From positions 82,001 to 146,000 of the forward strand of contig JAKOMT010000004.1 in NCBI GenBank assembly GCA_022241475.1: a stretch of DNA of 64,000 nt. Direction: 5' to 3'. The notes below the pieces were generated by a model. That model was not told the origin of the DNA and made no database searches. It saw only the letters and a program-made list of their open reading frames with translations. Below are positions 29,057-55,409 of the stretch, piece after piece. Origin of the DNA: Microvirga sp. Its GTDB lineage: Bacteria > Pseudomonadota > Alphaproteobacteria > Rhizobiales > Beijerinckiaceae. The position numbers and the translations under genes were made by a program. The stretch's first letter is position 1; every line of letters starts with the position of its first letter.

Positions 29057-29839
29057 CTAATCCGCAAGCACCGCGTAGACGTCGCCGGAATTGGCGTCGT
29101 GCGGCAGCGCATCGATCCGGCGGGCCACGGTTTGCGCGTCGAGCCATTCGCCCGCCTCGAGGCGCTGCGTCTCGCCGAGCGCGAGGTCGAAGCGATAGCG
29201 CCCGAGCGCCGCCAGTCGCGCGAGGCAGGCATGCGCAACATCGCGCTGGATCGTCGTGAATTCGAAGGACAGCGCCGGCGGCGCCTGCGTCAGTCCGGCG
29301 AGGACGCGGTCCTCGAAGCCTTCCACGTCGATCTTGACGAAATCGGGCGCGCCGAACTCCGCGATGAGCGAATCGAGTGTGCGCACCGGCGCCGTGATCC
29401 TGTGATCCCAGGTCTGCCCCTCCCAGCCCGCCGCGCCCGCCGCGGCGCGCAGGAAGTCGGCGGAGGCCGTGGTCACGGTGGGGTTTTCGCTGTTGACGTG
29501 CAGTTCGATCTCGCCGGGGCGATCGCCGGCCGCCGCCGCGAGCAGGCTCACGTCCGGGTCGCGGCCATGGAGGAGGCGCAAAGCGCGCATCGCGCCGGGC
29601 TGCGGCTCGAGCGCCACCACGCGCGCCCCGAGCCGGCGGAAGCTGGCGACGCGGTCGCCCACATGCGCGCCGACGTCGAAGGCCAGCGCGCCCGGCCCTA
29701 CGAACCGGCCATAGAGGGCGTCCATGGCGGCTGCGCGCTCGCCGTCGCCGCGATAGAGGCGCAGCGAGCGGCCGATGGCCCGCGCCGTCCCGCGCGGCCG
29801 CAGCCCCTGTTTCGTCGCGTCGATCGTTTCGCTCGCCAT
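29057..29839 (-). CDS. FkbM family SAM-dependent methyltransferase
   Basis: 260 aa. Motif I LAFDVGAHVGDRVASFRRLG lies at about residues 52-71, then VVALEPQPGAMRAL, and the FkbM signature FVKIDVEGFEDRVLAGL lies near 165-181. It is a likely O-methyltransferase. It is distinct in sequence from the FkbM protein at 21.9 kb and has no glycosyltransferase partner, so the acceptor is unknown. It is convergent with the DUF1194 gene. Confidence 0.86.
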   Translation of the reverse strand: MASETIDATKQGLRPRGTARAIGRSLRLYRGDGERAAAMDALYGRFVGPGALAFDVGAHVGDRVASFRRLGARVVALEPQPGAMRALRLLHGRDPDVSLLAAAAGDRPGEIELHVNSENPTVTTASADFLRAAAGAAGWEGQTWDHRITAPVRTLDSLIAEFGAPDFVKIDVEGFEDRVLAGLTQAPPALSFEFTTIQRDVAHACLARLAALGRYRFDLALGETQRLEAGEWLDAQTVARRIDALPHDANSGDVYAVLAD

Positions 29840-30020: not shown

Positions 30021-31043
30021 ATGATGACCGACCTCGCGCCGATCTCCGACATCCCCACCCGCGCCGACCGCCCGGGCGACGCCGACGCTCTGTTCTACGC
30101 GGGACGGCGCTCAGCGGTTCTGCGGTCCGTCCCCCTGAGCGCGCCCGAGCCCGGCGAGGCCCTCGTGCGCACGCTCTGGAGCGCGCCGAGCCGAGGCACG
30201 GAGCGCCTTGTTTTCGAAGGCCGCGTCCCCGCCGACGAGCGCGACCGGATGCGCGCGCCGTTTCAGGAGGGCGATTTCCCCTTCCCCGTGAAATACGGCT
30301 ATTGCGCGGTCGGCGTGGTCGAGGAGGGCTCGGCGGATCTGCTCGGGCGAACCGTCTTTTGCCTGCATCCGCATCAGACGCGTTTCGTCGTCCCCGAGAG
30401 CGCGCTCGCGCTGGTGCCCGACAAGGTGCCCGCGCGGCGAGCGGTGCTTGCGGCGAACATGGAGACGGCGCTCAACGCGGTCTGGGATTCGGGCGTCGCG
30501 CCCGGCGCGCGGGCGATGGTGGTGGGCGGCGGCGTCCTCGGGCTGCTGGTCTGCGCCCTGATCGGGCGGATGCCTGGCGTCGAGGCGACGCTCGTCGACG
30601 TCGATCCCGCGCGCGCGCCGCTCGCCGCCGCGCTCGGCTGCGGCTTCTCGAAGCCGCTCGACGCGCCCGGCGAGATGGACGTCGTGTTCCACGCCTCGGC
30701 AAATCCGGCCGGTCTGTCCTGCGCGCTCGCCTGCGCCGGGGACGAGGCGCGCATCGTCGAGATGAGCTGGTACGGCTCGCAGCCCGCGCCCGTGCCGCTC
30801 GGCCTCGCCTTCCACAGCCGCCGGCTGCAGATCGTGTCGAGCCAGGTGGGGCGCATCGCGCCCCTGATGCGCCCGCGCTGGGATTACGCCCGACGCCTCG
30901 CCAAGGCGCTCGACCTGCTCGACGATCCCCGCCTCGACGCGCTGATCACCCACGAGATCGCCTTCGCCGACCTCCCCGCCGCGCTGCCCGCCCTGCTCGC
31001 CCCCGGCGCGCCGGGCCTGTGCGTCGCCGTTTCCTACGCGTAA
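30021..31043 (+). CDS. MDR-superfamily dehydrogenase without zinc ligands
   Basis: 340 aa. Medium-chain dehydrogenase/reductase fold: a GroES-like N-terminal half with the SAPSRGTERLVFEG segment (reminiscent of the GTE motif of BchC-type dehydrogenases), then a Rossmann dinucleotide loop VVGGGVLGLL near residues 170-180. The usual catalytic and structural zinc cysteines are not seen. It opens the gene run at 30-33.4 kb, 24 bases before the PTPS-like gene, and probably oxidises or reduces a hydroxyl/keto group on that pathway's intermediate. Confidence 0.82.
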   Translation: MMTDLAPISDIPTRADRPGDADALFYAGRRSAVLRSVPLSAPEPGEALVRTLWSAPSRGTERLVFEGRVPADERDRMRAPFQEGDFPFPVKYGYCAVGVVEEGSADLLGRTVFCLHPHQTRFVVPESALALVPDKVPARRAVLAANMETALNAVWDSGVAPGARAMVVGGGVLGLLVCALIGRMPGVEATLVDVDPARAPLAAALGCGFSKPLDAPGEMDVVFHASANPAGLSCALACAGDEARIVEMSWYGSQPAPVPLGLAFHSRRLQIVSSQVGRIAPLMRPRWDYARRLAKALDLLDDPRLDALITHEIAFADLPAALPALLAPGAPGLCVAVSYA

Positions 31044-31067
31044 CCGCTTTCCTTGGAGTACCTGCCC

Positions 31068-31469
31068 ATGTTCGCCGTCGAAGTCCGCGACCACGTCATG
31101 ATCGCCCACAGCTTCCGGGGAGACCTGTTCGGCCCCGCCCAGAAGCTGCACGGCGCCACCTTCGTCATCGACGTGGCCTTCTTCCGCCGCGAACTCGGCC
31201 CGGACGGCGTCGTCGTCGATATCGGCCGCGCCCATGACGCGCTGAAGGCGACGCTCGGGCCGCTGAACTACCGCAACCTCGACGAAGTTCCGGAATTCGC
31301 CGGCGTCAACACGACGACCGAATTCCTCTGCAAGCACATCTTCGACGCCATGGCGGCGGCCGCGCGCAGCGGCGAACTGGGGCCGGGCTCGAAGGAGATC
31401 GCGCGCATCCGCGTGCTGATCGGCGAATCGCACGTGGCGCGCGCCTGGTACGAGGCGGATCTGGCGTGA
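31068..31469 (+). CDS. Degenerate 6-pyruvoyl-tetrahydropterin synthase (PTPS/QueD-fold) protein
   Basis: 133 aa with the T-fold of PTPS/QueD. Recognisable blocks are MIAHSF, KLHGATFVIDVAF, GVVVDIGRAHDAL and NTTTEFLCKHIFDAM. Several catalytic features are lost: the nucleophile Cys position reads GPAQ, the third zinc His of HGH is Ala (HGAT), and the Asp-His pair of LDHxNL reads LNYRNL. The base-binding Glu (IGESHVARAWY) remains. It likely still binds a pterin or aminopyrimidine but does different chemistry. It overlaps the GT4 gene start in GTGA. Confidence 0.8.
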   Translation: MFAVEVRDHVMIAHSFRGDLFGPAQKLHGATFVIDVAFFRRELGPDGVVVDIGRAHDALKATLGPLNYRNLDEVPEFAGVNTTTEFLCKHIFDAMAAAARSGELGPGSKEIARIRVLIGESHVARAWYEADLA

Positions 31470-32542
31470 GCGAGAGGGCCATGGTCCGGGCCGCATTCGC
31501 GATCCCGGGCGATCTTGCGAGCCCGACGGGCGGCTACGCCTACGCGCGGCGCATACTGCCGCTGCTGGCGGGCGAGGGCGTGAGCGTGACGCATCTCGCC
31601 CTGCCGGCCGCGTTTCCGCATCCCGACGAGGCCGACCTCGCGCGGACGCAGGCCCTGCTGAGCGAGGCCGCGCGCGAAAACGTGCTGCTCGTCGACGGTC
31701 TGGCGCTCGGCGCGATCCCGCCGGGGCTGATCGCGGAGATCGCTCCGCGCATCGTCGCGCTGGTGCATCATCCGCTCGGGCTCGAGACTGGCCTTTCCGA
31801 AGAACGCGCCGCGGAGCTTCTCGCCAACGAGGCGGCGGTGCTGGCGCTCTGCCCCCGGATCGTCGCGACAAGCCCCACAACTGCGCGAACGCTCGTCGCC
31901 GATTTCGGCGTCGCCGCATCCCGGATCGGCGTGGCCGAGCCGGGAACGGATGCGGCGCCGCCCGCCCGTGGCGGGCCGCCCGGCGCTCCGCCGGCGCTTC
32001 TGGCGGTCGGATCGGTGTCGCCGCGCAAGGGCCAGCGACTCCTTGTCGAGGCTTTGGCGGGTCTTCCCGCATCGCTCGAATGGCGCCTCGTCATCGCCGG
32101 GGCGAATCGCGACGCGGACGAGGCCGCCGCCCTGCGCGCGCTGATCGCCGAACGCGGCCTCGGCGCGCGGATCGATCTCGTCGGGGCCGTCTCCGAAGAC
32201 GCCCTCGCGGACCTCTACGCCGGCGCGGACCTCTTCGTGTCGGCCTCGCTCTACGAGGGCTATGGCATGGTGCTCGCGGAAGCCATGGCGCGCGGCCTGC
32301 CGATGGTGGTCTCGACGGGCGGCGCGGCGGCGCAGACGGTCCCGGACGGAGCGGCTCTGAAGGTCCCGCCGGGCGACGTCGCGGCGCTTCGCGAGGCGCT
32401 GGAGCGCGCGATCTGCGACGAGACCCTGCGGGCGCGCCTCGCGGCGGAATCGGCCCGGGCGGGAGCGGCGCTGCCCCGCTGGGAGGACGCCGCGCGCGTC
32501 GTGGCGCGGGCGATCATGGACATTGGACGAGAGAGAGCGTGA
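31466..32542 (+). CDS. Glycosyltransferase family 4
   Basis: 358 aa, GT-B fold. The donor-binding domain has LLAVGSVSPRKGQRLLVEAL near 170-190 and the diagnostic EGYGMVLAEAMARGLPMVVS near 263-282. The N-terminal GGYAYARRILPLL fits an acceptor domain. The GTG at 31466 overlaps the PTPS-like stop; an ATG at 31481 is an alternative. It is sandwiched between pterin-type and methyltransferase genes, so the acceptor may be a pterin/pyrimidine-derived molecule rather than a polysaccharide (inference). Confidence 0.87.
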   Translation: MSERAMVRAAFAIPGDLASPTGGYAYARRILPLLAGEGVSVTHLALPAAFPHPDEADLARTQALLSEAARENVLLVDGLALGAIPPGLIAEIAPRIVALVHHPLGLETGLSEERAAELLANEAAVLALCPRIVATSPTTARTLVADFGVAASRIGVAEPGTDAAPPARGGPPGAPPALLAVGSVSPRKGQRLLVEALAGLPASLEWRLVIAGANRDADEAAALRALIAERGLGARIDLVGAVSEDALADLYAGADLFVSASLYEGYGMVLAEAMARGLPMVVSTGGAAAQTVPDGAALKVPPGDVAALREALERAICDETLRARLAAESARAGAALPRWEDAARVVARAIMDIGRERA

Positions 32543-33384
32543 TGAGTGGATTTTCGGTCGACTGGCTTTCCCTGCGCGAGGGCGCGGACCACCGTTCGCG
32601 CGATCGCGCGCTTCTCGCCGCGCTTTCGGCGGCTTTCGCCGGCCGCCAGGAGATCGACGTGGTCGATCTCGGCTGCGGCTCCGGCTCGAACCTGCGCGCG
32701 CTCGCCGCGCATCTGCCGGCGCGGCAGAACTGGCGGCTCGTCGATCACGACGCGGCGCTGCTCGCAGCCGCGCGCGAGACGATCGCGGACTGGGCCGACG
32801 AGGCGCGCCGCGACGGCGACAATCTCGAGGTCGAGACGGACGGCAAGCGTCTGCGCGTTTCGTTCGTGCAGGCCGACCTCGCCCGCGACGTCGACGCCGT
32901 GCTCGATCCGACCCCCGCCCTCGTCACGGCGGCCGCCCTGTTCGATCTCTGCTCGCGCGACTGGATCGCCCGCTTCGCGGCGGCCGTAGCGAAACGGGGC
33001 GCGGCCTTCTACACCGCGCTGACCTATGACGGGCGCGAGACCTGGGAGCCGCCGCACCCGGCCGACGCCGCGGTGCTCGCGGCGTTCCATGCGCATCAGG
33101 CGAGCGACAAGGGCTTCGGCCTGTCCGCGGGGCCGCAGGCGACGCAAGTTCTGGCGCAGGCTTTCGCCTCGGCCGGCTACCGGGTGGAGACGGGCGACAG
33201 CCCGTGGCGTCTCGGCTCGGACGACGCGGCCCTGATCGCCGCTCTCGCGAACGGCGCGGCGCAGGCCGTCGCCGAGACGGGCGACCTGCCGGCGGCCGAT
33301 GTCGAGAGCTGGCGCGCGGCGCGGACGAAGGCGGGCGTCTCCTGTCTCGTCGGTCACGCGGACCTGCTAGCGCACCCGGCCTGA
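32542..33384 (+). CDS. Class I SAM-dependent methyltransferase
   Basis: 280 aa. Motif I VVDLGCGSGSNLRALAAHLP lies at residues 39-58, an acidic WRLVDHD strand follows, and post-I features SFVQADLARD are present. The start shares bases with the GT4 stop (TGATG), so expression is coupled. The acceptor is unknown, inferred to be the product of the upstream glycosyltransferase/PTPS-like enzymes. Its 3' end overlaps the convergent cytochrome b561 gene by 18 bases. Confidence 0.84.
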   Translation: MSGFSVDWLSLREGADHRSRDRALLAALSAAFAGRQEIDVVDLGCGSGSNLRALAAHLPARQNWRLVDHDAALLAAARETIADWADEARRDGDNLEVETDGKRLRVSFVQADLARDVDAVLDPTPALVTAAALFDLCSRDWIARFAAAVAKRGAAFYTALTYDGRETWEPPHPADAAVLAAFHAHQASDKGFGLSAGPQATQVLAQAFASAGYRVETGDSPWRLGSDDAALIAALANGAAQAVAETGDLPAADVESWRAARTKAGVSCLVGHADLLAHPA

Positions 33385-33936
33385 GCCGGGCAGCATCCGG
33401 CGCAAGGTCGCGTCGCGCAGCGCGTAATGGTGATGCAGCGCCGCCGCCGCGTGCAGGAGCAGCAGGGCGGCGAGCATGACGGCGAAGATCTTGTGCGCCA
33501 CGAAGATCGGCTCGGCGACGGGGAAGCCGCCGCTGATCGGCAGGGTGAGCGGGACGCTCCAGAACAGGTTCACCGGGGCGCAGCAGGCGGACGTCGCGGC
33601 CCAGCCGGCGAGCGGCGTCAGAAGCATCAGGGCGTAGAGCAGGATGTGCGTCGCCTTGGCCGCGACGCGCTTGATGGCCGGCATCGGCACGAGCGGCGGG
33701 GCGCCCGCGACCCAGCGCGTGGCGAGGCGGATCACGGTCAGGCCGACGACGATCAGGCCGAAGGATTTATGCAGTTCGTAGAGCAGGTTCACGAGCGGCG
33801 AGGGATCGAGACTGGTCATCACGAGGCCGGTCGGGATCATCCCGAGAATGATGATCGCCGTCGCCCAGTGCAGGGCGATCTGAAGGCCCGAATAGCGCTC
33901 CGGCCGCGTTCGCGCCGGCGAGGTCACGGTCGTCAT
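33367..33936 (-). CDS. Cytochrome b561 family membrane protein
   Basis: 189 aa with four membrane helices and helix-borne histidines suited to two b hemes: IALHWATAI, LHKSFGLIVVGL, ATHILLYALMLLTPLAGW and VAHKIFAVMLAALLLLHAAA. This is the bacterial b561/superoxide oxidase type, moving electrons to or from quinone. The start has GGAGG upstream and overlaps the RibD-like stop (ATGA), placing it in that unit. An electron-transfer role for a reduced pathway product is possible but unproven. Confidence 0.85.
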   Translation of the reverse strand: MTTVTSPARTRPERYSGLQIALHWATAIIILGMIPTGLVMTSLDPSPLVNLLYELHKSFGLIVVGLTVIRLATRWVAGAPPLVPMPAIKRVAAKATHILLYALMLLTPLAGWAATSACCAPVNLFWSVPLTLPISGGFPVAEPIFVAHKIFAVMLAALLLLHAAAALHHHYALRDATLRRMLPGSGRVR

Positions 33937-34661
33937 GGGCCCTCCTTCGTCAACTCGTTCCCGGCTCCCGCGCTCCCGGCTCCCGCGCGCAGGTCGCAAT
34001 CGAACAGGACGTCGCCGCCGTCGAGTAGAAACGTCCGCGTGGCCGGGCGCAAGGCGCCCGACAGGGTTTCGATGACGGGCAGTTCGAGCCCGGGCTTGCC
34101 CGAGCCGATCAGCACGGGCGCGACGAGCATGTGCAGCCGGTCCACGCAGCCCGAGGCGAGGAAATCCGACACCGTGCGCGCCCCGCCCTCGATCAGCACG
34201 CGCGCGAAACCGGCCCGCCCCAGCGCCGCGACGATCTCCCCCGGAGCGATGAGCCCGTCCGCCCCGCGCTCGACGCGCAGGAATTCGACTCCGTCGGGCG
34301 GCGCGCCCGGGCGGTCGGACCCGCCGATCACGATCCTGCGAGCCCCGTCATCCGCGAAACAGACCGCGCCGGCCGGCGCCCGGCCCGAGGGGTCGATCAC
34401 GACGCGCGCGGGAGACGCGCCCGGAGCGCGGCGCACCGTCAGCATCGGATCATCCGCGATCACCGTTCCGACGCCCACGACGACGGCGTCGACATGGGCG
34501 CGGATGGCGTGGAGATGGTCCAGAGCCGCCTCGCCGTTGATGTATTTCGAATCCCCCGTGACGGTCGCGATGCGCCCGTCGAGGGACTGCCCCAGCTGGG
34601 CCACGACGAAGGGCCGCGAGGTCGTCCCGGAACCAAAGCAGGCGAAACAGGGTTTCATCAT
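33933..34661 (-). CDS. RibD C-terminal (dihydrofolate-reductase-fold) reductase
   Basis: 242 aa with only the reductase half of RibD; no deaminase domain. Conserved blocks: FVVAQLGQSLDGRIAT, DAVVVGVGTVIADDPMLTVR, PARVVIDPSGR, and VLIEGGARTVSDFLASGCVD. These bind NADPH and a ribosylaminopyrimidine-type substrate in the family. It begins MMKPCFACFGSG at 34661. It is divergent from ribA across about 210 bases. Encoded beside GTP cyclohydrolase II it may reduce a GTP-derived intermediate, either in riboflavin synthesis or in a separate pathway. Confidence 0.85.
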   Translation of the reverse strand: MMKPCFACFGSGTTSRPFVVAQLGQSLDGRIATVTGDSKYINGEAALDHLHAIRAHVDAVVVGVGTVIADDPMLTVRRAPGASPARVVIDPSGRAPAGAVCFADDGARRIVIGGSDRPGAPPDGVEFLRVERGADGLIAPGEIVAALGRAGFARVLIEGGARTVSDFLASGCVDRLHMLVAPVLIGSGKPGLELPVIETLSGALRPATRTFLLDGGDVLFDCDLRAGAGSAGAGNELTKEGP

Positions 34662-34782
34662 TGATCTATGGCCACTTTGCCGTCGTAGAACCGTTGCATC
34701 CACGAAGCGTTCGACCGATATCGGCAGGGCGATGGTCGAGTGGTCGGTCGCTTCGGATGCGTGGGGGGATATTTAGCGCTCG

Positions 34783-34844
34783 GTGGGGCCTTGAACAGTG
34801 CGATATGATCCGCACGCGTTCGTAAGGTTTCATCCGGGCCCCAC
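34783..34844 (+). promoter_or_regulatory. Inverted repeat in the ribA leader / divergent promoter region
   Basis: GTGGGGCC at 34783-34790 and its exact complement GGCCCCAC at 34837-34844 enclose 46 bases, ending 26 bases before the ribA ATG. It could be an RNA stem in the leader or a spaced operator. It does not match the FMN riboswitch consensus as far as can be judged by eye. Confidence 0.3.
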
Positions 34845-34870
34845 TCGTCACCGATAGGAAGCCCAGTTCC

Positions 34871-35983
34871 ATGATGCGTCTTGTTCTTGGTTACTCCGGC
34901 GATCCGGGTCTGATGAGCGTCGAACGCGCGATCGCCGAGTTTCGCCTCGCCCGTCCCTTGCTCGTCTCCGACGGCGGCGTGGACGCGCTCGTCATCGGCG
35001 TCGAGGACGTCGACGCCGAGCTGTGCCGTCGGCTCGACGTCGTCGCCGGCGGCCGCGCCCGTCTCATTCTCACCGGCCCGCGCCTGCGCCGGCTCGGCCT
35101 CGACCGCGAGGATCACGGCGCCGTGGCGCTGCCCGTCGTCGATCCCGCGCGCGTCGAGGCGCTCGCCCGCCGCATCGACGCGCGCATCGACGCGCCGGTG
35201 CGCGCCGTCTCGCAGATCGATCTCGACGGGCTGGAGCTCGCGCGTCTCGCGCTGGTGTCGCCAGCGGTGATCGTCATTCCGCTCCCCGACGAGATGGAGC
35301 GCGAGCCGTCGATCCTGACCGTCACCGGCGAGGATCTGCGCGCCTATCGCCGCAAGGAGGCGACGCGCCTGCGCATCGCCAGCCGCGCGCCGGTGCCGCT
35401 CGAAGGCGCGCCGGACAGCGAGTTCGTGGTGTTCCGCGGCGGCGAGGGCATGCGCGACCAGGTCGCGATCATCGTCGGCAAGCCCGATCTCACAAAGCCC
35501 GTCTTCGTGCGGCTGCATTCGGCCTGCCTGACGGGAGATCTCTTCGGCTCGCTGAAATGCGATTGCGGCGACCAACTGCGCGGCGCCGTGCGGGCCATGA
35601 CCGAGGGCGAGGGCGGCATCCTGCTCTATCTCGACCAGGAAGGCCGCGGCAACGGGATCGCCAACAAGATCCGCGCCTACAAGATGCAGTCGGAGGGCTT
35701 CGACACCTACGACGCCGACGAGGCGATGGGCTTCGGGCTCGACCAGCGCCGCTTCGATTTCGCCGCCCGCATGCTGATCCAGCTCGGCGTGGCGAGCGTC
35801 AGGGTGCTGACCAACAACCCGCTCAAGATCGGAGCGCTTCAGGAGGCCGGGCTCACCGTGGTGGCCGAGCGCTCGATCGGGCGCGCCCATCCGGAGAACC
35901 TGCGCTATCTCGCGTCCAAGCGCGACCGCGCGGGGCACATGATCGACCTCGACGCGGTGCTCGCCGCGCCGCATCAGGATTGA
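34871..35983 (+). CDS. ribA: GTP cyclohydrolase II
   Basis: 370 aa. It opens GTP to 2,5-diamino-6-ribosylamino-4-pyrimidinone phosphate. The C-terminal 200 residues are a standard GCH II: zinc cysteines in HSACLTGDLFGSLKCDC, substrate loop LDQEGRGNGIANKIRAYK, and LTNNPLKI. The N-terminal 165 residues are a diverged, probably inactive DHBP-synthase-like region, common in alphaproteobacterial RibA. It neighbours the RibD-like reductase and PTPS-like genes. It may serve riboflavin, the adjacent tailoring pathway, or both. Confidence 0.92.
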   Translation: MMRLVLGYSGDPGLMSVERAIAEFRLARPLLVSDGGVDALVIGVEDVDAELCRRLDVVAGGRARLILTGPRLRRLGLDREDHGAVALPVVDPARVEALARRIDARIDAPVRAVSQIDLDGLELARLALVSPAVIVIPLPDEMEREPSILTVTGEDLRAYRRKEATRLRIASRAPVPLEGAPDSEFVVFRGGEGMRDQVAIIVGKPDLTKPVFVRLHSACLTGDLFGSLKCDCGDQLRGAVRAMTEGEGGILLYLDQEGRGNGIANKIRAYKMQSEGFDTYDADEAMGFGLDQRRFDFAARMLIQLGVASVRVLTNNPLKIGALQEAGLTVVAERSIGRAHPENLRYLASKRDRAGHMIDLDAVLAAPHQD

Positions 35984-36064: not shown

Positions 36065-36979
36065 CTATTGCGCCGACCATGCGAGAATGCGCCGCGCCGT
36101 CTCCGGGCCGCGCGCCTGTGAGGCGATGCCGTAATGCTCGGCGAGCCGTCCGAGCGCGCGGGCGATCACCACCTTCGCCGAGCGCGCCGGCCAGCCGCGC
36201 TCGCGCTCGATCTCCGCGATCGGTTTGAGAAAGCCGCAAAGATCGACGAGCAGGTCGGCGTCCTCGCCCCCCAGACGGTCGACGATTCGCGCCAGGCGCT
36301 GGCGGGCGGCGATGCGGGTCTCGGTCGGATCGGCCGCCCGCGCGCCGGAGCCTCCCCCCGCCCCGGCGCCGAAGCGGTCCCAGTCGAGCCCGATCCCCGG
36401 CATGATTCCCGCGAGCGTCAGATCGCGCCGCAGCCGCTCGCCGGCCTCCAGCCTCGCCGCGTCGATGAGCGGATCGCCCTTCGGGCCGCGCCGCGAGGCG
36501 AGCCAGGCGAGCGGGCTCTCGTCGCGGTTGACCCGCGCGCGGGCGCCGTCGTCGAGCGTGACGGTCCGCGACCGACGGTGTTGCGCGGCGAAGCCCTCCG
36601 TCGCGTCCAGCCCCTCCGCCCGCGCCGCCGCCCGCCGCAACAGCGCCCGCCCGGCTTTCGAGATCACCATATCCGCGCCCCGCGCCTCGACGAGATCGCG
36701 CGCGAGAAGCGCGTCGAGCGCGGCGAGCGGATGCTCCCCGCCCCCCAGCGACACCCGCGCCGGGCCGTCATTCGTCGCCACGCCCGCTTCCGCGCCCGCC
36801 GATGCGCAAGCGCTCCCGCGCGCTTTTCGAACGACGACCCGCCCCTCCTCGAACGGATGCGCCCGCGCCGCCGCCCCCGCGCCGTCGAGGGCCTTCAGGA
36901 GCCGCATGGCGGGTCGGCCGGGGGCCTCGGCGGGAGAAAGGGGGGACTTGGAGAGCGAAATGTTCATGAAATTTTCCAA
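36065..36979 (-). CDS. DUF6456 domain protein
   Basis: 304 aa. The C-terminal domain (about 130-290) carries the family blocks DESPLAWLASRRGPKGDPLI, DAARLEAGERLRRDLT, and LAEHYGIASQ. It resembles a helix-turn-helix regulator with winged-helix-like N-terminal residues 80-115. Hyphomicrobiales-specific and of unknown role. A TTGACA lies at 37042-37037 on this strand, and the IS1595 element is inserted just beyond it, so expression may have been altered. Confidence 0.82.
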   Translation of the reverse strand: MENFMNISLSKSPLSPAEAPGRPAMRLLKALDGAGAAARAHPFEEGRVVVRKARGSACASAGAEAGVATNDGPARVSLGGGEHPLAALDALLARDLVEARGADMVISKAGRALLRRAAARAEGLDATEGFAAQHRRSRTVTLDDGARARVNRDESPLAWLASRRGPKGDPLIDAARLEAGERLRRDLTLAGIMPGIGLDWDRFGAGAGGGSGARAADPTETRIAARQRLARIVDRLGGEDADLLVDLCGFLKPIAEIERERGWPARSAKVVIARALGRLAEHYGIASQARGPETARRILAWSAQ

Positions 36980-37043
36980 TCGCGACGATCTGGAGTAGAA
37001 TGATCAGGCGGCGATGGAAGCGCGGGGAGTGGCGATTGTCAAG

Positions 37044-37051
37044 AAAATATT
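37044..37051. repeat. Left target-site duplication of the IS1595 element
   Basis: AAAATATT, directly abutting the left inverted repeat. The identical octamer abuts the right end at 39238-39245. Eight bases is the duplication size of the IS1595 family. Confidence 0.93.
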
Positions 37052-37064
37052 CCTAATTATATAC

Positions 37065-37093
37065 TTGACAAAGTACATGCCGCTTCATAGGTT
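37065..37093 (+). promoter_or_regulatory. Candidate transposase promoter in the left IS end
   Basis: TTGACA (37065-37070), exactly 17 bases, then TAGGTT (37088-37093), 22 bases before the transposase ATG. The -35 box lies in the inverted repeat itself. Confidence 0.5.
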
Positions 37094-37115
37094 TGGCCAT
37101 CGAAGGGACCAAGCC

Positions 37116-38087
37116 ATGAAACTCGATAGCCCGATCTTTCAGGACGCCGACAAAGCCCGCGAGCATCTTGAGGCTCAGCGCTGGCCGAATGGCCCCATTT
37201 GCCCGCATTGCGGCAATGCCAACGGCGACCGCATCACCAAGATGCAAGGGAAAGCGCACCGTCCCGGCCTCTACAACTGCATGGAATGCCGCGAGCAGTT
37301 TTCCGTCACCGTGGGGACGGTGTTCGAGCGCTCCAAGATCGCCTTGAACAAGTGGCTGTTGGCTACGTTCCTTCTCACGTCCTCCAAGAAGGGCATGAGC
37401 GCGCACCAGCTGCACCGCATGCTTGGCGTTACCTACAAGACCGCTTGGTTCATGGCCCATCGTATCCGCGAGGCCATGAAAGAGGACGTGTCCACTTCCG
37501 GCCCGCTTGGCGGCGAAGGCAAGACCATCGAAGCCGACGAAATGTATCACGGTCGCCGTGAGGACGGGTACGTGTCCCCCCAGCGCAAGGGTAAGCCATA
37601 CCTCAAGCGCAAGAAGCCCCTCAAGCGCACGGTCGTCGGCCTTGTCGAGCGCGGCGGACAGGTCCGCACCTTCCATGTCCAGCACGCGACCAAGGCGTCC
37701 GTGCGCGACATTCTCGTCCAGAACGCCGATCGTCAGTCAACGCTCTATACTGACGAATCGAACCTGTATCCGGTCACCGGCAAGGAGTTCGGCGCGCACC
37801 GCACGGTCAAGCATTCTGCGAAAGAGTATGCCCGCCGCGAGGGCGACGTGGTTGTCCACACCAACACGATCGAGAACGTCTTTTCGATCTTCAAGCGCGG
37901 CATGGTTGGCGTCTATCAGCATTGCGGCGAAGCGCACCTTCACCGCTACCTCGCCGAATTCGATTTTCGCTACAATCGCCGCACGGCGCTCAAGGTGACC
38001 GATACCGAGCGCCACAACGATCTGCTTTCCATGATCGGAGGGAAGCGCCTCACCTATCGGCGGCTTGACGACGCCGCGCACGCTTAA
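37116..38087 (+). CDS. IS1595-family (ISXO2-like) transposase
   Basis: 323 aa, starting MKLDSPIFQDADKARE. An N-terminal zinc ribbon (CPHCGN, then YNCMECREQF) lies at about residues 28-65. The catalytic core shows the first Asp in IEADEMYHGRR, the second in LYTDESNLYP, and the IS1595-type Asn/Lys in HTNTIENVFSIFKRGMVG. The tail HRYLAEFDFRYN is characteristic. The frame is complete, so the element may be active. An in-frame upstream codon at 37014 lies outside the element and is not the start. Confidence 0.95.
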   Translation: MKLDSPIFQDADKAREHLEAQRWPNGPICPHCGNANGDRITKMQGKAHRPGLYNCMECREQFSVTVGTVFERSKIALNKWLLATFLLTSSKKGMSAHQLHRMLGVTYKTAWFMAHRIREAMKEDVSTSGPLGGEGKTIEADEMYHGRREDGYVSPQRKGKPYLKRKKPLKRTVVGLVERGGQVRTFHVQHATKASVRDILVQNADRQSTLYTDESNLYPVTGKEFGAHRTVKHSAKEYARREGDVVVHTNTIENVFSIFKRGMVGVYQHCGEAHLHRYLAEFDFRYNRRTALKVTDTERHNDLLSMIGGKRLTYRRLDDAAHA

Positions 38088-54583: not shown

Positions 54584-55219
54584 CTAATCGACCATGTGGC
54601 GCAGGCTCGCGCGCATGTAGTCCCATCCGGTATAAATGGTGAGGATCGCCGAAATCCAAAGCAGGATCGTGCCGATGAGCGTCGTGCCCGGCAGGACCAT
54701 GTCCCCCGCCGGCCCCGCCACGAGAAATCCGACGGCGACGAGCTGGACGGTGGTCTTCCATTTCGCGAGCGCGCTCACCGGCACGCTCACCTTCAGGCCC
54801 GCGAGATATTCGCGCAGGCCCGAGACGAGGATCTCCCGGCACAGGATGACGATCGCCGCCCAGATGGTGAAGCTCTCGATCGTGCCGTCGCGAACAAGCA
54901 TGAACAGCACGGCCGCGACGAGGAGTTTGTCGGCGATCGGATCGAGCATCCGCCCCAGAGCCGATTGCTGGTTCCAGGCGCGGGCGAGATAGCCGTCGAA
55001 GTAATCGGTCACCGCAGCCGCCACGAAGATCCCGAGCGCCCACCAGCGCGCGCCGTGATTGTCCGACCAGAACAGGAGCGCCACCACGGCCGGCACGGCG
55101 AAGCAGCGTCCGTAGGTGAGCAAGTTCGGCAGCGCGAGAAGGTTGTTTCGTCGCATGTCGGGAAAACAATTTTCGAGGTTACGGGGCGAAGCAGGCCCGC
55201 TCGGGGAATGATCGCTCAT
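54584..55219 (-). CDS. pgsA: CDP-diacylglycerol-glycerol-3-phosphate 3-phosphatidyltransferase
   Basis: 211 aa; commits CDP-diacylglycerol to phosphatidylglycerol. The CDP-alcohol phosphotransferase motif is intact: TDYFDGYLARAWN followed by ALGRMLDPIADKL. About five membrane helices are seen. The ATG at 55219 is chosen for its GGGAGG; the ATG at 55156 (MRRNNLLALPNLLTYGR) would give the usual shorter protein and cannot be excluded. Same strand and order as moaD-moaE. Confidence 0.92.
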   Translation of the reverse strand: MSDHSPSGPASPRNLENCFPDMRRNNLLALPNLLTYGRCFAVPAVVALLFWSDNHGARWWALGIFVAAAVTDYFDGYLARAWNQQSALGRMLDPIADKLLVAAVLFMLVRDGTIESFTIWAAIVILCREILVSGLREYLAGLKVSVPVSALAKWKTTVQLVAVGFLVAGPAGDMVLPGTTLIGTILLWISAILTIYTGWDYMRASLRHMVD

Positions 55220-55409
55220 CCGCCTCCCGAGTAGCACCAATGCCGCCGGCCTGTAAATCGCCCAGTCCCGATCCGGCCCCGCCCGAAACCCGCCGCCGCG
55301 CGCAACAGAACTTTACAATCCGCCGGACGCAGCGAAACGAACGGGCGTTATCTCTCGAGGACGGACGGGAGCGGCTGACAATCGGCCGCCCCGGAACAGG
55401 AGAGAGACC

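Follow-up and report, generated by a model that had tools for sequence, protein, structure and literature searches.

A conserved PTPS-IV gene cluster in Microvirga sp. that may branch from the first step of riboflavin synthesis

The DNA analysed here, called the window, is a 64,000-nucleotide stretch of Microvirga sp. contig JAKOMT010000004.1 (positions 82,001 to 146,000 of the forward strand), in which seven adjacent genes at 30021-35983 include one for a protein with the fold of 6-pyruvoyl-tetrahydropterin synthase (PTPS). The initial annotation had read these genes as a possible pterin- or pyrimidine-tailoring cluster, and the sequence, its open reading frames (ORFs) and Pfam and NCBIfam searches of the window place all seven where they had been reported. 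Together with the gene just upstream, the features of the locus are as follows.

29057..29839, minus strand: FkbM-family methyltransferase (PF05050, 64.4 bits), divergent neighbour of the MDR gene
30021..31043, plus strand: MDR-type dehydrogenase, distant from BchC, with no Pfam match at E 1e-3
31068..31469, plus strand: PTPS-IV protein bearing FGPAQ (Pfam PTPS, 72.6 bits), closest solved structure 3d7j
31466..32542, plus strand: GT4 glycosyltransferase (Glycos_transf_1, PF00534, 109.2 bits)
32542..33384, plus strand: class I S-adenosylmethionine (SAM) methyltransferase, one Pfam cut-off passed (30.2 against 27)
33367..33936, minus strand: cytochrome b561 (Ni_hydr_CYTB, PF01292, 101.2 bits)
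33933..34658 from ATG, or from GTG 34703, minus strand: stand-alone RibD_C reductase (RibD_C, 130.6 bits)
34659..34870, no strand: divergent intergenic region between RibD and RibA, with no Rfam element at the gathering threshold
34871..35983, plus strand: RibA of the PRK08815 type (GTP_cyclohydro2, 164 bits)

A 24-base gap separates the MDR gene from the PTPS gene, which overlaps the GT4 gene at GTGA; the GT4 and methyltransferase genes overlap in turn at TGATG. The b561 gene is convergent with the methyltransferase gene, whose end it overlaps, and is joined to RibD at ATGA, and RibA is divergent from RibD. The gap and the joins are all as first described. A Salinarimonadaceae metagenome-assembled genome (L001) has the gene order of the window, with PTPS 93% and RibA 92% identical, and the window locus is Salinarimonadaceae-like. 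The FkbM methyltransferase just upstream probably belongs to the cluster as well; its family neighbours the cluster in other loci too.

The MDR protein scored 44.7 bits against BchC (TIGR01202), below the cut-off of 291.25, and the positions conserved in over 70% of its relatives include no Cys. The closest solved structures to GT4 are 6kih and 7qsg. The predicted model of the methyltransferase is confident (mean predicted local distance difference test score, pLDDT, 97.2), and a fold search returned generic class I methyltransferases only.

PTPS and QueD enzymes carry a Cys-Asp-His triad and three zinc-binding histidines, and the window protein had been described as having the PTPS fold without its catalytic residues. 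Alignments to 2g64 and 3i2b bear this out: in the window protein A24 takes the place of the Cys of 2g64, N67-Y68 that of the Asp-His of both structures and A30 that of the second His of HGH, the residues so replaced being those we take to be the catalytic and zinc residues of PTPS, so that the PTPS/QueD set was not found in the window protein. Across 125 sequences, A24, A30, H14, H28, D51, D72, E85 and E120 are invariant, position 68 is Tyr in 116, and position 67 is Asn in 100 and Asp in 5. With this conservation, the site has been changed and fixed and has not simply decayed; Glu120 is presumably the pterin anchor. Residues 21-25 read FGPAQ, which is exact in 123 of the 125, and the closest solved relative is 3d7j, Streptomyces coelicolor SCO6650 (E 1.3e-60), with PTPS and QueD structures at 1e-7 or worse. 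Public records name such proteins 6-carboxytetrahydropterin (queuosine) or 6-pyruvoyl-tetrahydropterin synthases, names that the differing residues contradict. FGPAQ is given as the signature of the PTPS-IV subgroup in the available text of PMC5445326 (2017), which also describes a 561-sequence cluster preferentially bearing the motif with PF00925 and PF01872 in its neighbourhood. Both families lie beside the window PTPS, and by its sequence the protein can be placed in PTPS-IV, a kind already in print.

We then asked how far the arrangement recurs. The window PTPS matched at least 589 stretches, at least 503 of them encoding a relative, and the best 80, many ending at contig ends, were kept. 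By tblastn with the window proteins, these 80 contained PTPS in 80, GT4 in 78, the methyltransferase in 68, MDR in 66, b561 in 41, RibD in 38, RibA in 29 and FkbM in 19. In an even draw of 385 genomes of Alphaproteobacteria (the class sample), 50 matched PTPS at E 1e-3; five of these (2e-5 to 8e-4) were dropped as other PTPS proteins and the 45 at 1e-28 or better were kept, which puts PTPS-IV in about 12% of the genomes sampled. All 45 neighbourhoods (L012 and L141-L184, several shortened by contig ends) were examined with profile score limits of our choosing. They hold MDR in 44, GT4 in 43, the methyltransferase in 39, RibD in 36 and RibA in 18, and, more sparsely, a CDP-alcohol phosphatidyltransferase in 15, OpgH in 11, b561 in 10, a creatininase-family gene in 8, FkbM in 7 and LPG_synthase_TM in none. 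The position of RibD varies: 23 loci have it downstream and on the opposite strand, 13 have it upstream and on the same strand, and 9 have none, so its link to the cluster survives rearrangement. A compact MDR-PTPS-GT4-methyltransferase-RibD-RibA set with a creatininase-family gene is kept even in genomes of 1.4-1.6 Mb (L141-L143).

In a phylum sample, 28 of 398 genomes matched at E 1e-15. The weak match L227 apart, all reached E 1e-55 or lower; four of these 27 (G004, G045, G124 and G206) also belong to the class sample, and the remaining 23 together with L227 make 24 loci. These hold MDR and PTPS in 23 each, GT4 in 22, the methyltransferase in 21, RibD in 20, the phosphatidyltransferase and LPG_synthase_TM in 11 each, RibA in 10, OpgH in 9, FkbM in 7, b561 in 6 and the creatininase family in 5; none of the cluster profiles matched at L227. 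Distances between PTPS-IV proteins correlate with those of GT4, the methyltransferase, MDR, RibD and RibA (rho 0.68-0.86), a result that shared ancestry of the genomes alone could give. Of 20 plasmid records with a PTPS match, nine (L185-L193) were examined. The cluster lies on plasmids of Streptomyces fungicidicus (L186), the gammaproteobacterium Candidatus Thiodictyon (L187), Microbacterium (L188), Agrobacterium (L189), Methylosinus (L191) and, without GT4, Rhodobacteraceae SC52 (L192), and an Arthrobacter plasmid (L190, a record without annotation) has MDR, PTPS and GT4 by profile; the cluster thus extends beyond Alphaproteobacteria to gammaproteobacterial and actinobacterial plasmids.

The arrangement recurs far beyond chance, and synteny together with co-occurrence shows its genes to be a single functional unit. 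The initial annotation had made its reading depend on these families co-occurring in related genomes, and they do: the core and RibD recur through the 45 class-sample and 23 further phylum-sample loci. Its seven-gene cluster stands for the core families and is narrower at the edges, where RibA is not specific and b561 is accessory, present near the cluster in only 10 of the 45 loci despite its ATGA overlap with RibD.

RibD follows PTPS-IV more closely than RibA does. RibD_C is the only Pfam domain of the window protein, in which no deaminase domain was found, and its best solved relatives are 6p8c, named a diaminopyrimidinone reductase, and 2azn, presumably archaeal, both ranking above full-length bacterial RibD. 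We searched 36 PTPS-IV genomes and 44 without PTPS-IV for this stand-alone type (profile A2, E 1e-70); the former are 36 of the 45 positives, eight of the nine left out having RibD at the cluster, and the latter are the low-numbered part of the 335 class-sample genomes without a PTPS match. The type was present in 31 of the 36 and in 0 of the 44 (Fisher 2.6e-17; this and all later Fisher values ignore kinship), and in 30 of 35 versus 0 of 22 when genomes below 2.8 Mb were left out (Fisher 2.3e-11). A weaker RibD_C match, nearly always in a full-length frame, is present in 29 of the 44, the best of them at 1.3e-46 in such a frame; the remaining 15 show no match at 1e-20. The stand-alone RibD reductase thus tracks PTPS-IV across genomes. 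In 17 named-locus genomes, a RibD-RibA pair lies away from the cluster in 7 and within it in 6, and RibD alone lies within it in 1 (G016).

With 474.5 bits, RibA lies above the PRK08815 cut-off of 464. In its predicted model (mean pLDDT 80.4, with low values in parts of the second domain), a 3,4-dihydroxy-2-butanone 4-phosphate (DHBP) synthase fold is followed by GTP cyclohydrolase II. The acidic motif of DHBP synthase (RibB) is DDExxENEGD; a search for this pattern in the window RibA found it absent, though the N-terminal fold is present. Three zinc-binding Cys and a Tyr that align with E. coli RibA are kept, the Tyr being what we take to be the functional one of its GTP cyclohydrolase II, and these residues suggest that the window protein opens GTP as a GTP cyclohydrolase II.

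Whether RibA is dedicated to the cluster is a separate matter. Exactly one PF00925 match of at least 148 bits is present in 15 of 17 cluster genomes and two are present in G012 and G015, further matches reaching at most 113 bits. Among eight weaker PF00925 places (L228-L235), the zinc motif was missing from the two that gave hits, and the other six gave none, the motif not being readable there; the seven strong places (L236-L242) have it, and L243, of a third type, is without it. The Microvirga aerophila genome (G015) has another strong RibA besides its cluster copy at L073. Window-type RibA is enriched with PTPS-IV (32 of 36 genomes versus 20 of 44; Fisher 3.9e-5), and a second, cluster-linked copy exists in G233, G399 and G032. 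Given the single strong match in 15 of 17 genomes and its presence where PTPS-IV is absent, RibA very likely also serves riboflavin, and the idea of a dedicated cluster enzyme is weakened on the same two counts. The link of RibA to the other genes, first drawn from adjacency, is therefore upheld as enrichment and not as specificity, RibA usually being the sole strong GTP cyclohydrolase II.

These counts also bear on the simplest alternative, that RibA and RibD are plain riboflavin genes lying by chance beside an unrelated glycosylation cluster. The usually single PF00925 match, the occurrence of RibA without PTPS-IV and the seven genomes in which the RibA-RibD pair sits away from the PTPS cluster all speak for it. 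We nevertheless consider it quite improbable: the stand-alone RibD type is missing from every one of the 44 genomes without PTPS-IV, 29 of which have weaker RibD_C matches, nearly all of them full-length; no FMN riboswitch was found at the Rfam gathering threshold in the window or eight loci; and second, cluster-linked RibA copies exist.

Our preferred reading, which we hold as evenly balanced, is that the PTPS-IV cluster, of which the window holds a member, encodes a conserved biosynthetic pathway branching from the first riboflavin step. From its active-site residues, RibA would open GTP to give 2,5-diamino-6-ribosylamino-4(3H)-pyrimidinone 5'-phosphate. The stand-alone RibD would reduce the ribosyl to a ribityl group without a deaminase step, as in archaea, so that the 2-amino group would be retained. 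The conserved Glu of PTPS-IV may then bind this 2-amino-4-oxo heterocycle, which PTPS-IV and the MDR dehydrogenase together would convert by a reaction unlike those of PTPS and QueD, after which GT4 would glycosylate and the methyltransferase would methylate the heterocycle. The product would be a 2-amino-4-oxo, pterin-like compound made from GTP by a reductase-first branch, glycosylated and methylated.

Several observations weigh against this pathway. GT4 or the methyltransferase is missing from some loci, and neither the co-occurrence counts nor the Fisher values allow for kinship. The window RibD falls below every NCBIfam cut-off (125.5 against 150.15 bits; 94 against 186.45 for the archaeal diaminopyrimidinone reductase TIGR01508; 106.9 against 156.35 for the riboflavin deaminase-reductase, whose deaminase domain it also lacks), and two further structures named diaminopyrimidinone reductase, 4ha7 and 9l1f, score below bacterial RibD. 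The RibD type is absent from 5 of the 36 PTPS-IV genomes, no stand-alone RibD was found in 3 of the 17 named-locus genomes (G008, G014 and G017), and G061, without PTPS-IV, has a RibD_C match in a 222-residue frame (E 1.7e-39). RibA occurs in 20 of the 44 genomes without PTPS-IV and lies within about 8 kb of the cluster in only 18 of 45 loci, and the cluster RibA of Microvirga aerophila (L073:13699-14805) has a gap at the Tyr position. Finally, no RibD was seen in the S. fungicidicus L186 stretch, 9 kb to each side, which weakens that plasmid as support.

As to the form of the product, a CDP-alcohol phosphatidyltransferase emerged as a new partner of PTPS-IV. Counted with alignment A7 (which is without the window pgsA and the L069 match), it is present in 18 of the 36 PTPS-IV genomes and 0 of the 44 others at E 1e-25 (Fisher 2.6e-8; 1.5e-5 once the small genomes are removed); the phylum-sample loci were counted with a 200-bit limit, and all 15 class-sample matches scored above 230 bits. 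The examined cluster stretch contains it in 12 of those 18 genomes; elsewhere it can be away from PTPS and still 65 bases from RibA (G192, G288) or 1.5 kb from RibD (G045). The family motif is DGxxARxxxxxxxxGxxxDxxxD, and D115, D118, G119, R123, G132, D136 and D140 are invariant in 22 rows of relatives, with A122 kept in at least 90%. The enzyme is fused to an FkbM methyltransferase at L144:4662-6119 and L145:4500-5954, in L225 and L157 its frame and that of an FkbM gene overlap, and in Thiodictyon it shares a four-base overlap with RibD. LPG_synthase_TM is encoded in 14 loci, all outside the class sample, and 12 of these have its frame immediately behind the methyltransferase gene. A scan of the window found no cluster phosphatidyltransferase: the sole gene of the superfamily, 54584-55240, matched at 176 bits and was rejected as ordinary pgsA (148 bits, cut-off 109).

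From these associations one may imagine a lipid product, in which a phosphorylated ribityl-pyrimidine or pterin is the acceptor for the phosphatidyltransferase and is glycosylated, methylated and moved by a flippase-like protein. The genomic tracking, the proximity to the cluster (15 of 45 and 11 of 24 loci) or, away from PTPS, to RibA or RibD, the Thiodictyon overlap, the FkbM fusions, the placement of LPG_synthase_TM and the invariant motif all point that way. We still judge it unlikely, mainly because the other half of the 36 PTPS-IV genomes, including G276 of 1.4 Mb, are without the enzyme; so are 15 of the 17 named-locus genomes, the exceptions being the two Salinarimonas, which carry it elsewhere in the genome. 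The window itself has only pgsA, none of the 45 class-sample loci has LPG_synthase_TM beside the cluster, and the best solved matches of the phosphatidyltransferase are weak and mixed. A fuller form, which we find distinctly unlikely, is a new membrane lipid whose GTP-derived, glycosylated and methylated pterin-like or ribityl-pyrimidine head group is joined by the phosphatidyltransferase and perhaps exchanges electrons with cytochrome b561; window-type genomes would then carry the enzyme elsewhere, as the two Salinarimonas do, or make an unanchored form. The initial annotation had proposed a glycosylated, methylated pterin or pyrimidine without a lipid part, soluble or secreted. Glycosylated pterins are known in other bacteria, and many genomes that lack this phosphatidyltransferase still carry the full core; such a product leaves the tracking of PTPS-IV by that enzyme unexplained, and we regard it as a serious candidate whose probability falls somewhat short of even.

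It had also been suggested that the glycosyltransferase and methyltransferase might instead follow surface-polysaccharide genes, and a cluster for modifying surface or periplasmic glucans (OpgH, FkbM, GT4 and methyltransferase) finds some echo in the MdoH/OpgH-type glucosyltransferase gene near 11 of 45 and 9 of 24 loci, in FkbM at 7 of 45 and 7 of 24, and in the MdoH annotated beside the cluster of Methylosinus trichosporium OB3b (L191), whose core also has RibD next to it. GT4 and the methyltransferase, however, accompany PTPS and MDR in nearly all loci and OpgH in a minority, and a glucan gives no reason for PTPS, RibD or RibA, making this very improbable. We attach next to no probability to a role for PTPS-IV in coenzyme F420 synthesis, which the available text of PMC5041015 mentions as an unpublished remark. 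A CofH match does lie within about 10 kb of PTPS-IV in G263 (G263:C10:11909) and G343 (G343:C132:8097), but over 57 genomes CofH does not track PTPS-IV (4 of 36 with it versus 5 of 21 without; Fisher 0.27), and the link was rejected.

Around the cluster, six groups of neighbours, each in at least five loci, came out of a de novo search, and one of them, YceI, was named by Pfam from a single member. This YceI-like gene lies upstream of PTPS-IV in seven loci (L167, L174, L181, L212, L214, L215 and L220, Pfam being run on the L220 member only). Groups of ORFs upstream on the plus strand turned out to be antisense to OpgH-type genes. Two Streptomyces plasmids (L185 and L193) carry PTPS-IV on its own, in the vicinity of MEKHLA, cupin and MBL-fold genes, with MDR, GT4 and RibD not in view, and a record titled Oceanobacillus (L079), possibly misnamed, bears an alphaproteobacterial-type cluster with PTPS 74% identical. 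Next downstream in the window are a DUF6456 gene (36065-36979) and then an IS1595-family transposase (37014-38087). Scans for promoters and terminators gave counts at the level of shuffled sequence (0 versus 0.2 and 3 versus 1.9).

Through co-occurrence, genes that carry wrong names come together as a single pathway, for which the gene set and its accessory partners are defined and the product of GTP cyclohydrolase II is the likely starting point. Should the end product prove to be a pterin-type lipid or a redox carrier of the membrane, it would be a new class of membrane molecule. The window protein shares the FGPAQ signature and the PF00925/PF01872 neighbourhood of the PTPS-IV subgroup of COG0720 (IPR007115). 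The initial annotation could match the set to no pathway it could name, which still holds for the product, not in print; the neighbourhood of PTPS-IV with GTP cyclohydrolase II and RibD, however, is already published (available text of PMC5445326). A literature search beyond that paper and PMC5041015 found nothing further on point for PTPS-IV. The available text of the two is silent on MDR, GT4, the methyltransferase, the CDP-alcohol phosphatidyltransferase and FkbM as partners, and calls the PF00925 protein FolE2 or cyclohydrolase I, whereas the window protein is of the GTP cyclohydrolase II type.

GTP cyclohydrolase II and RibD_C domains are common to the window cluster and to RibBA, RibBX and RibD of the riboflavin pathway, but the window RibD is without the deaminase of its riboflavin counterpart. 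RibBX is described as RibB fused to a dead cyclohydrolase domain (available text of PMC10012899), and the window RibA is its mirror image, with the cyclohydrolase site kept and the DHBP synthase motif lost. A RibBX-type protein (L233) shows the reverse, the motif kept and the zinc site lost, and the two perhaps represent a reciprocal split of an ancestral RibBA.

In S. coelicolor, the source of the closest solved PTPS relative, SCO6655 is presumably a GTP cyclohydrolase II paralogue, and Met at its Tyr position is reported to lead to a formamide product. The S. fungicidicus plasmid L186 carries MDR-PTPS-GT4-methyltransferase with its own Met-type RibA, unlike the window RibA with its Tyr and DHBP-synthase-like N-terminal domain, and with an adjoining creatininase-family hydrolase, a gene the window cluster is without; RibD, for its part, is not in view at L186. 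A formamide product would call for a deformylase. The L186 protein is, however, nearer MftE than ArfB (141 against 37 bits, both below cut-off) and L141 and L154 have no ArfB match, so the creatininase-family protein was rejected as ArfB; L141, L143 and L154 moreover have a Tyr-type RibA beside a creatininase-family gene, and the formamide/deformylase reading is thus not uniform. The archaeal riboflavin route, with its deformylase ArfB and diaminopyrimidinone reductase, differs from the cluster in this respect and resembles it in a reductase without deaminase, nearest to 6p8c and 2azn, and in the creatininase-family gene of 8 of the 45 loci. Sugar and methyl tailoring of GTP-derived heterocycles is likewise known from the cyanobacterial pteridine glycosyltransferase, limipterin, cyanopterin and toxoflavin, systems that the proposed pathway would resemble in this tailoring.

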